Source: Candidatus Uhrbacteria bacterium
Lineage (GTDB): Bacteria; Patescibacteriota; Patescibacteriia; UBA9934; GWF2-40-263
Direction: 5' to 3'
Assembly (NCBI GenBank): GCA_016188495.1
Contig: JACPHU010000028.1
Span: 1-38,324, forward strand
Length of the DNA stretch: 38,324 nucleotides
Shown: one piece after another, positions 10,659 to 34,807 of the stretch
Position numbering within the stretch: the first letter of the stretch is position 1
How the letters are laid out: every line of letters starts with the position of its first letter
The notes under the pieces: model-generated
The model's input: the letters and a program-made list of their open reading frames with translations, nothing else
Told to the model about the DNA's origin: nothing
Database searches by the model: none
Program-made: the position numbers and the translations under genes

Positions 10659-11600
10659 ATGCCCAAGTGGCTTGCGATTGTCTTGATGGGTTTTTTGATC
10701 CCGATTTTTTTCTTTTTTGGTTTTTTTTGGACAACTTACAGTGAACAGTCACCCTCCTCGTTTGATAATAGGGCACATGCGTTTTCTTACCTGTTCGCCT
10801 CTTCAACTCTTTACGAACGAGCGAATCATGCTTCTGAAGATATTAAGCGAACCGGATCTTTATCCGGAATCGTTGCGCATCATTTGTTGGTCGCGGATAA
10901 AATGGCGCAGCTGTTTGCTTCATTGGGAACCGGTCGTGAAAAGGTCGTTGTTATTCTTTCCCCCAATCATTTTTCTTTAGGTCGTTCCTCCATACAAATG
11001 ACCGATGGTACATGGATAACTCCTTTTGGAGACGTAGAGGTTGACACAAGGCTTTTGGCAAAATTTCTTGAAAGAGATTCAGTTTTTGCTTACGAGCCTG
11101 AGACGTTTGAACGAGAACATGGTGTTTCAGCCATTGTCCCATTCGTGAAATATTGGTTTCCTCAGGCTCATATTCTTCCCATCGTGATTTATGACAAGGC
11201 CACAGACGATCAAGTGAAGATGCTTGCTCAGACCATTCAAGAGATTGTTCCAAAAGCCGTGGTCGTTGCGTCAATGGATATGTCTCATCAAAAGCCTGAG
11301 GATATTCAACTGTTTCATGATGAAATAACCATCAGAACTATTGAGAACGGTTTATGCGAAGAAAAGTGTTCACTTGATGTTGATGCGAATCGCGTTCTTG
11401 AAACACTCTTTGAGATCAATCGTCTTCGCGCTACACAAGCGTGGACTCTAACCCATCATGGGAGTTCTTTAACCATGGGGGCAACGACGGATTGGCATGA
11501 AAATACCAGCCACATTTTAGGATATTTTCAAACAACAAAAGATACGAATGTCTTCGAGAAGATGTTTCACGTACTCGTGTTATTATGGAAAAAAGAATAA
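10659..11600 (+). CDS. AmmeMemoRadiSam system protein B (Memo family), membrane-anchored
   Basis: 313 residues. Residues 5-27 are a single hydrophobic anchor and the rest should face outward. GIVAHHLLVADKM near 70, ILSPNHFSLG near 98, REHGVSAIVPFVKYW near 150 and ASMDMSH near 205 are the conserved blocks of Memo proteins, which are related to LigB-type dioxygenases and hold a metal site built from these histidines. In many genomes Memo sits with an AMMECR1 protein and a radical SAM enzyme; neither is present here. It starts one base after the kinase stop codon and is thus co-transcribed with it. The biological role of bacterial Memo is unsettled. Confidence 0.85.
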   Translation: MPKWLAIVLMGFLIPIFFFFGFFWTTYSEQSPSSFDNRAHAFSYLFASSTLYERANHASEDIKRTGSLSGIVAHHLLVADKMAQLFASLGTGREKVVVILSPNHFSLGRSSIQMTDGTWITPFGDVEVDTRLLAKFLERDSVFAYEPETFEREHGVSAIVPFVKYWFPQAHILPIVIYDKATDDQVKMLAQTIQEIVPKAVVVASMDMSHQKPEDIQLFHDEITIRTIENGLCEEKCSLDVDANRVLETLFEINRLRATQAWTLTHHGSSLTMGATTDWHENTSHILGYFQTTKDTNVFEKMFHVLVLLWKKE

Positions 11601-11728
11601 AGACCTCTACAAAAGTCGCGATCTTGCGGCTTACGGGCGCCCACCAACTCCACTCTCCCTATTGTGAATAGGGTTCGCGGAGCTTGGTAGCCCGTGCACC
11701 GCAATCTCATCGACTTTTGCACAGGTCT
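11601..11728. repeat. 128-nt imperfect palindrome, family member A
   Basis: It begins on the base after the Memo stop codon. AGACCT (11601-11606) pairs with AGGTCT (11723-11728). Further in, CAAAAGTCGCGATCTTGCGG pairs imperfectly with CCGCAATCTCATCGACTTTTG, and the apex is a 7-bp hairpin, CCCTATT/AATAGGG (11657-11673). The same arm sequences recur in the metK riboswitch at 33571-33720. It fills almost all of the 143-bp gap before the next gene and could act as a terminator-like structure, though no T run follows. Confidence 0.8.
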
Positions 11729-11743
11729 CAATAACTATTTTTT

Positions 11744-33495: not shown

Positions 33496-33511
33496 CTTTT
33501 TCACAACTGAA

Positions 33512-33765
33512 GATTATAAAGAGGTGGTGAGGGAAATGGCCCTGTGACCCACCAGCAACCTATCTAAGAGATCTTTTCAAAATTCGCGATCTTTCGTTTC
33601 ATGGGTCCCCATCGACTCGTCACCGTATATGAATACGGCTCTGTCGTCGACCCGCCCGGCCTTATGTCCGTTCGGACGGGTTTCCCCATTCAACGAAATC
33701 TCATCGAATTTGGAAAAGATTTCATTCATAAGGTGCTACATCCATCCCATGCGGGAAAGATAATT
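33512..33765 (+). promoter_or_regulatory. SAM-I (S-box) riboswitch with a greatly enlarged P3 arm
   Basis: The core is recognisable base by base: P1 GATTAT (33512-33517) with ATAATT (33760-33765); then AAAGAG; P2 GGTGG with CCACC enclosing GAGGGA, GGCCC and TGTGA; GCAACC (33555-33560); AGGTGCTA (33731-33738); P4 TCCC/GGGA; and AAAGATAA. The pseudoknot can form between ATGG (33536-33539) and CCAT (33742-33745). The usual short P3 loop is replaced by about 170 nt, most of it the palindrome at 33571-33720. SAM binding should stabilise P1 and let the terminator at 33775 form, shutting off metK. Confidence 0.92.
33571..33720. repeat. 150-nt imperfect palindrome inside riboswitch P3, family member B
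   Basis: ATCTTTTCAAAATTCGCGAT at the left pairs imperfectly with ATCGAATTTGGAAAAGAT at the right, with inner hairpins CCGTAT/ATACGG and CCCGTCC-type GC-rich arms. Its left arm matches that of the palindrome at 11601 in about 21 of 27 positions, and its right arm shares AATCTCATCGA. Both copies therefore belong to one repeat family. Confidence 0.8.
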
Positions 33766-33774
33766 ATTTAACAT

Positions 33775-33805
33775 AAGCTTTCTCTTTGAGAAAGCTTTTT
33801 CTTTT
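33775..33805 (+). terminator. Riboswitch expression-platform terminator
   Basis: AAGCTTTCT (33775-33783) pairs with AGAAAGCTT (33789-33797), followed by a T-rich tract that runs directly into the metK ATG at 33806. There is no room for a Shine-Dalgarno between the T tract and the start codon. Confidence 0.9.
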
Positions 33806-34807
33806 ATGAGTTTGATTCCATCTGTCTATACCGTTGAGTGCGTCACTAAGGGACATCCTGACCGAGTGTGTGACCAAATTGCTGATCGTATTTTAAAAGA
33901 AATTGCTTATTTGGATCCTACGGCTCATGTGGCTGTAGAGGTGTTTGGATGCAAAGGCGTTTTGACCATTGGTGGAGAAGTGACAACCCAAGCGCAGGTA
34001 GACTATGAGTCGCTTGCTCGTGAGGTATTGCATGAGGTGTGTTATGAAGATCCTATTGAGATACGTATTCATCTTATTTCCCAATCCCCAGAAATTCATT
34101 CAGCTGTGGACGTTGGAGGAGCAGGAGACCAGGGAATCATGTATGGCTACGCAACCCATGAAACTGAAACGTTCATGCCTATTGGAGTTCATTTTTCTCG
34201 AGCTCTCACAACAGAACTTGAACGCTTAAGAGAAAGTGGCGAAATTCCTTGGTTGAAGAGCGATGGAAAAGTACAGGTAACCATTCGAGACCATGTCCCT
34301 GAGGTGATTGTTGTGAGTACACAACATAAAGCAGATATTTCTCTTGAGGAGGTTCGATCTGTACTGATGGAGAATCTTATTCTTCCGCAATGGCAGAAAC
34401 AACGATTTCCAGAACCGATGTCTTGTCGCGTGCTGATCAATCCCGCCGGATCTTGGACTGTTGGGGGATTTAATGCAGATTCAGGCCTCACCGGTCGCAA
34501 GCTGGCCGTAGATTCTTATGGAGGGATTTTGCCAGGGGGCGGCGGGTCTACTCACGGAAAAGATCTTTCCAAAGTTGACTGTTCTGCCACAACTCAAGCG
34601 CGCCAAGCTGCTGTTGCTATTGTTGGAGCCGGTCTTGCTCAAGAGTGTTTGGTGAGCGTTGCCTACGCAATTGGCATTAACGAGCCGGTCATGTTGTATG
34701 CTCTTAACCAGAACGCAGAAGAGATCACGCATCTTCTTGATCCTAAAGTGTTTCTTTCGACGCAGTTACGCTCTCACTCTTTTGACGCTCAAGAGGAGGG
34801 TCGATAA
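33806..34807 (+). CDS. metK: S-adenosylmethionine synthetase
   Basis: Makes SAM from ATP and methionine. The 333 residues are shorter than the about 384 of E. coli but carry the bacterial signatures: ECVTKGHPDRVCDQIAD (methionine and ATP site His), GGAGDQGIMYGYA near 105, and the P-loop-like GGGGSTHGKDLSKVD near 246 with the catalytic Lys/Asp. The Lys of GHPDK is Arg here. Control by the SAM-I riboswitch directly upstream confirms the identity. Three genes follow with spacings of 11, 19 and 9 bp and are probably co-transcribed. Confidence 0.96.
   Translation: MSLIPSVYTVECVTKGHPDRVCDQIADRILKEIAYLDPTAHVAVEVFGCKGVLTIGGEVTTQAQVDYESLAREVLHEVCYEDPIEIRIHLISQSPEIHSAVDVGGAGDQGIMYGYATHETETFMPIGVHFSRALTTELERLRESGEIPWLKSDGKVQVTIRDHVPEVIVVSTQHKADISLEEVRSVLMENLILPQWQKQRFPEPMSCRVLINPAGSWTVGGFNADSGLTGRKLAVDSYGGILPGGGGSTHGKDLSKVDCSATTQARQAAVAIVGAGLAQECLVSVAYAIGINEPVMLYALNQNAEEITHLLDPKVFLSTQLRSHSFDAQEEGR

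Follow-up and report, generated by a model that had tools for sequence, protein, structure and literature searches.

A dispersed mobile palindrome within the P3 arm of a probable metK SAM-I riboswitch in Candidatus Uhrbacteria

The window analysed here is a 38,324-nt stretch of contig JACPHU010000028.1 (C13 in the genome labels) from the Candidatus Uhrbacteria assembly GCA_016188495.1, a 1.19 Mb genome denoted G000. The only match in the window at Rfam's own threshold (cmscan) is a SAM-I aptamer (S-box, RF00162) in the leader of metK, and it is also the only SAM-I aptamer of the genome. The alignment spans the full model and leaves approximately 162 nt unaligned within the P3 loop, which is occupied by a copy of a dispersed palindromic element. 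The metK gene begins about 40 nt downstream of the aptamer and is preceded by a terminator with an antiterminator pairing. The features of the leader, of the gene, and of another element copy elsewhere in the window are listed below.

33511-33766, forward strand: SAM-I aptamer including the P3 insert (48.3 bits, gathering score 44.4, model positions 1-108)
33512-33517, forward strand: P1 5' strand GAUUAU, partner AUAAUU at 33760-33765 (sequence, RF00162 alignment, fold prediction)
33523-33553, forward strand: P2 arm with hairpin loop, including the pseudoknot 5' half (alignment, folding, covariation by eye)
33555-33567, forward strand: P3 5' strand and loop remnant, GCAACCUAUCUAA (sequence, RF00162 alignment)
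33568-33723, forward strand: inserted dispersed palindromic element, long subtype (covariance model R1; ends by inspection)
33568-33586, forward strand: left arm of the element's outer stem, pairing with 33705-33723 (sequence, folding, paralogue alignment)
33587-33591, forward strand: internal loop CGATC, partner TCTCAT at 33699-33704 (conservation among copies)
33612-33650, forward strand: interior hairpin 1 of the element (sequence, aligned copies)
33651-33680, forward strand: interior hairpin 2 of the element, CCCGCCCGGCCTTATGTCCGTTCGGACGGG, long subtype (same place in five further copies)
33724-33736, forward strand: P3 3' strand, AUUCAUAAGGUGC (sequence, RF00162 alignment)
33742-33755, forward strand: pseudoknot 3' half CCAU (33742-33745) and P4 CCC/GGG (alignment, relatives' sequences)
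33753-33759, forward strand: GGGAAAG, candidate antiterminator strand, pairing with CUUUCUC at 33778-33784 (equivalent pairing in congeners)
33775-33805, forward strand: intrinsic terminator, a 10-bp hairpin and a T tract abutting the metK ATG (sequence, folding, congener comparison)
33806-34807, forward strand: metK, S-adenosylmethionine synthetase, 333 aa (Pfam, TIGR01034, dN/dS)
11597-11732, forward strand: further element copy, its end abutting the stop codon of the gene before it, with AATAA direct repeats on either side (model R1, 137.7 bits)

The metK product contains the N, M, and C domains of S-AdoMet_synt (Pfam), all above cut-off, and scores 297.8 bits against TIGR01034, slightly below the cut-off of 309.4. 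Comparison with the nearest congener, G023, over the first 129 codons only gives dN 0.093, dS 1.26, and dN/dS of about 0.07, and metK is under purifying selection over these codons. The terminator hairpin occupies 33775-33797 and the T tract 33798-33805, so that the tract directly adjoins the start codon at 33806, as the initial annotation had stated. The pairing of GGGAAAG with CUUUCUC is kept in G000, and matching changes occur in the congeners.

The aptamer belongs to RF00162: its score exceeds the cut-off, and P1-P4, the pseudoknot, and the conserved core are present, apart from a single mismatch in the top pair of P1. The pseudoknot joins AUGG (33536-33539) to CCAU (33742-33745), and its two segments covary in relatives, by inspection: UUGG/CCAA in G027, CGAG/CUCG in G013, and ACGG/CCGU in G038. 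The mismatched A33518 and G33759 form the next pair above the P1 strands, beside the SAM site; the same mismatch is found in an insert-free SAM-I aptamer (L043, genome G029), which has the same UAUAAAGAG. Except for this A in place of C, the G000 core is identical by inspection to that of insert-free congeners. The segment 33512-33805 has a predicted folding energy of -96.6 kcal/mol (z -6.1 relative to dinucleotide shuffles). With the insert present, predicted pairing probabilities are 0.86-1.0 for P2, 0.97-0.98 for P2b, and 1.0 for the base of P3, and P4 is also predicted to form; P1 reaches only about 0.3-0.4 (0.33-0.43) when folded without ligand or tertiary terms. The initial annotation, made without database searches, had described a SAM-I aptamer of metK with a conserved core and an ATGG/CCAT pseudoknot and had suggested that a self-complementary insert spares the fold. 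The first claim held and the second is supported, with P1 the weakest helix. A sub-threshold covariance score, named there as grounds for refutation, did not occur despite the insert.

With boundaries placed by inspection, the insert is better described as 156 nt long than by the earlier figure of about 170 nt. It is identified as a copy of the element by model R1, a covariance model derived from 29 further copies and not from the SAM-leader copy, which finds it at 33565-33726 with 79.1 bits and an E-value of 8.7e-15. The claimed relationship to the repeat at 11601, which the same model also detects, is thus confirmed. The P3 sequence outside the element, CCTATCTAA+ATTCATAAGG, amounts to 19 nt, and the P3 hairpins of congeners measure approximately 18-19 nt from CC to GG. 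No clear target duplication flanks the SAM-leader copy. The interior of the insert is unlike that of every other copy compared. Interior hairpin 2 recurs in five further copies (L087, L088, L089, L090, and L094), which define a long subtype; a second transposon nested in the insert was considered and excluded, because the hairpin sits identically in these copies.

The element is about 136 bp long, has 19-bp terminal inverted-repeat arms, and is present in about 76 copies. A core pattern derived from the two palindromes of the window, CGCGATCTT-N60-90-AATCTCATCG, occurs 34 times in G000 and is absent from the reversed control. The copy number comes from model R1, which matches approximately 76 separate places after both-strand duplicates were merged by hand, in the roughly 1.08 Mb covered of the 1.19 Mb genome; coverage of G023 was about 1.01 Mb. 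The G000 assembly has 29 contigs, of which C16 (2.8 kb) consists entirely of N. In the aligned copies, an asymmetric internal loop separates the 19-bp outer stem from an inner stem, and the hairpins of the interior are variable. Among the 29 paralogous copies, again without the SAM copy, changes on both sides are seen in 35 of 51 pairs, and the covariation score of 0.415 exceeds those of shuffles (0.134) and of slid structures (no more than 0.104). Across 25 loci, mostly one per genome, together with both window copies, nearly all outer- and inner-stem pairs change on both sides, while the TCTCAT loop strand is invariant (27/27) and faces a CGAYN-like partner. The outer stems at 12 sites matched between G000 and G023 contain 48 doubly compensated differences, 4 one-sided ones, and 27 unpaired ones; some of these differences may reflect independent insertions into the same hot spot, or correction of one arm by the other.

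Model R1 matches 29 of the 43 genomes of the family, in 13 of its 19 genera, and also a few other families of the class, where only 11 candidates were scored per genome. Apart from the SAM aptamer, neither window copy has a match in Rfam at E-values up to 5. Viral carriage was considered and rejected: the core pattern occurs in 19 IMG/VR contigs, only one of which reaches even 36.5 bits with model R1, and most of these occurrences are therefore attributed to chance.

Mobility of the element, proposed in the initial annotation, is demonstrated by comparison with G023, whose alignable parts are 82% identical to G000. Both flanks could be located in G023 for 44 of the 76 copies. Approximately 16 of these sites are empty and near-exact, with the flanks joined by roughly 0-19 nt (examples are C29:13865, where CTTGACAG is joined in G023, C20:1704, and C2:3486); therefore, the element moves. 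Direct repeats of 4-10 bp border several copies: AATAA at window position 11597 and at C15:20194, CATCT at C15:102221, TGATA at C18:46765, AACAT at C15:58103, and a 10-bp repeat at C20:1704. At the site corresponding to C22:4226, G023 retains the element-end sequence GATCTC, which looks like the trace of a copy since lost, and copies have probably been both gained and lost. The element satisfies the criteria for a MITE in being short, having terminal inverted repeats and many copies, and showing presence or absence at orthologous sites. The search of G000 with model R1 found no longer element with the same ends. Mobilization by a RAYT was rejected, as the sole Y1 (PF01797) match lies at C6:5722-6054 and C6:1-20000 contains no copy of the element.

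The placement of the element is polar. In the 58 scorable G000 copies, the left end lies within 10 nt of a gene in 42 cases and the right end in 9, and the left end is the closer of the two (sign test 2.7e-8, based on our own simple gene calls). According to ARAGORN, the left end adjoins the 5' end of 16 of the 38 tRNA genes of G000 and 6 of the 18 of G023, always in antisense, and the right end never does so in either set. At G000 tRNA genes the element is flush to within 0-5 nt (for example, L126:1899-2032, L131:14577-14709, and L212:12480-12612), and at six tRNA-adjoining loci from other genera (L105 and L119-L123) it is likewise antisense and flush with the tRNA 5' end. There is no explanation at hand for this preference. 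In most G000 copies the left end, and not the right, was observed to coincide with a gene boundary: a stop codon where the copy lies in sense, a start codon or tRNA 5' end where it lies in antisense. The copy at 11597-11732, for instance, abuts a stop codon at 11600.

SAM-I aptamers occur in 20 of the 73 genomes of the order, so that the initial remark that riboswitches are infrequent in CPR-type genomes does not describe this group, where they are not especially rare. The metK relatives are mostly labelled Candidatus Uhrbacteria. Leaders without the insert are present in the congeners G025 (74.6 bits) and G027 (58.9 bits), both with a short P3, and in the relative G013, at 42.4 bits just below the cut-off. 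The aptamer is directly followed by metK in G025 and G013, and in G027 the contig ends before the gene. The initial annotation would have been refuted by relatives showing that the insert breaks the pairing of P1, P2, or P4, which did not occur. Only one genome has this element in a SAM-I P3. No insert of comparable size was found among the 22 other SAM-I matches of the order, the next largest being a single-copy sequence of about 50 nt in the P3 of G001 (L046:1501-1648). In G024 and G026, the metK SAM-I leaders contain hairpin inserts of a different kind close to P2/J2-3 (L051:2798-2985, L053, and L059) and give no SAM match from Rfam, even at relaxed thresholds. The hairpins of G024/G026 and of the G001 P3 were considered as the same element and rejected, being single- or two-copy sequences distinct from this repeat. 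An additional hairpin was observed in P4 of the SAM-I aptamers of G006 and G007 (L048 and L049). In G023 the whole aptamer is gone, and the terminator hairpin, the T tract, and an intact metK start remain. The G023 leader (L055 / L069), in which the retained terminator lies immediately upstream of metK, invites the question how the gene is expressed there. A second metK homologue exists in most congeners and in G000, where it is 42% identical. At this second gene (L087 ~1500; G000:C15:46476-46679), a long-subtype copy of the element, with a further palindrome inside it, was observed in antisense flush with the ATG.

The locus most likely represents a working metK riboswitch whose P3 accommodates a mobile palindrome; SAM binding and regulation are inferred, as there are no binding or expression data. 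A mobile self-complementary repeat would have entered the P3 hairpin loop of the riboswitch. The element folds into a single long, nearly perfect stem and would therefore merely lengthen this peripheral arm, without disturbing P1, P2, the pseudoknot, P4, or the expression platform. Binding of SAM would stabilize P1 and free the terminator, giving transcription attenuation; in the absence of SAM, GGGAAAG would pair with the 5' arm of the terminator and metK would be read. The predicted formation of P2, P2b, and P3, the kept antiterminator, and the purifying selection on metK together favor a working attenuator with an elongated P3. Continued SAM control in G000 and the neutrality of the insert remain inferences. 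Against this reading stand the mismatch at the top of P1, the low predicted probability of P1, the loss of the aptamer in G023, the lack of a clean target duplication around the SAM-leader copy, and the restriction of the case to a single genome. Since G023 lost its aptamer, control of metK may be dispensable in this branch.

It is possible that the riboswitch is instead a decaying relic and that the element entered a leader already losing importance. The mismatched P1 pair fits this view; however, it also occurs in the insert-free L043, the other core positions are those of insert-free congeners, and the pseudoknot, P2, P4, and the antiterminator pairing are intact. Decay is retained as a rival because G023 lacks the aptamer yet keeps the hairpin, the T tract, and an intact metK start, and because a second metK homologue is available in G000 and most congeners. 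It is unlikely that the insert was recruited as a structured RNA module that brings a protein or a processing site to the metK leader and forms a composite regulator. The invariant internal loop between covarying stems would suit such a role, as would the copy lying antisense at the ATG of the other metK gene. However, the insert is present in one genome only, no sister has a conserved insert, and there is no evidence that the element functions in mRNA. The initial annotation had left open whether the riboswitch tolerates or has recruited the palindrome; tolerance is preferred because nothing shows that the insert adds function. An assembly artefact, in which a copy of the repeat was misjoined into the metK leader of this metagenome-assembled genome, is very improbable. 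A repeat present in about 76 copies is a recognized source of chimeric joins, and the assembly is in 29 contigs; however, the insert lies exactly in the P3 loop with P3 strands on both sides, the contig is 106 kb long with flanking sequence collinear with G023, and the interior of the insert matches no other copy compared.

The proposed tolerance of the element by a working riboswitch has partial precedents. The core, pseudoknot, P1-P4, metK target, and terminator platform are those of SAM-I (RF00162), whereas the P3 loop of G000 holds a 156-nt dispersed mobile palindrome. It is established that riboswitches can accommodate long hairpin insertions; according to Barrick and Breaker (PMC2258182), many of them do so, with the inserted sequence forming stem-loops. 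The present case shares with these variable insertions a long stem-loop at a tolerant site, but here the insert is traceable to a mobile family in the same genome. The nearest precedent is a pneumococcal BOX element located between two T-box riboswitches upstream of trp, where the folding units are thought to be independent and RNA-seq suggests continued regulation (PMC3049150). Both are dispersed structured repeats in a riboswitch leader; however, the BOX element lies between two aptamers and the G000 element inside one arm of a single aptamer. RUP, Correia/NEMIS, and ERIC are MITE-like palindromes and form the comparison set for the element itself, used together with PMC10969869. Like them, the element is short (about 136 bp), is bounded by terminal inverted repeats, is mobile, and is present in numerous copies, most of which are intergenic. 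By contrast, its inverted repeats vary between copies yet stay complementary, it has a conserved asymmetric internal loop and a preference for tRNA 5' ends, and no matching transposase was found for it. A search of the open-access literature returned no account of this repeat and no riboswitch arm known to contain a mobile element, which is weak evidence of novelty.

At this locus a riboswitch variable insertion can be traced back to a mobile element; the donor family is present in the same genome, and relatives lacking the insert are available for comparison. The predicted fold of an RNA arm can thus survive the entry of a self-complementary element, which offers an inexpensive way of arriving at larger structured RNAs. 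The element itself is plentiful in a streamlined genome, under structural constraint, and linked to tRNA 5' ends, and would be a new target for the RNA biology of Patescibacteria. A bolder reading, which we regard as possible but less likely than not, is that Uhrbacteria harbor in this element a mobile structured RNA or hairpin DNA of a class not yet described. On this reading, CGAYN/UCUCAU would be its core and the 5' end of tRNA genes its home site, it would spread to gene boundaries, and in G000 it would have become the P3 arm of a working riboswitch.

At the center of the element, for example in GGGCGCCC or GGGGCCCC, three segments vary in concert: one on the 5' side, an inverted copy next to it, and another copy at a distal position. 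The resulting three-way complementarity, ACGGGC-GCCCGU...GCCCGU or ATGGGG-CCCCAT...CCCCAT, hints at dimerization or strand exchange.
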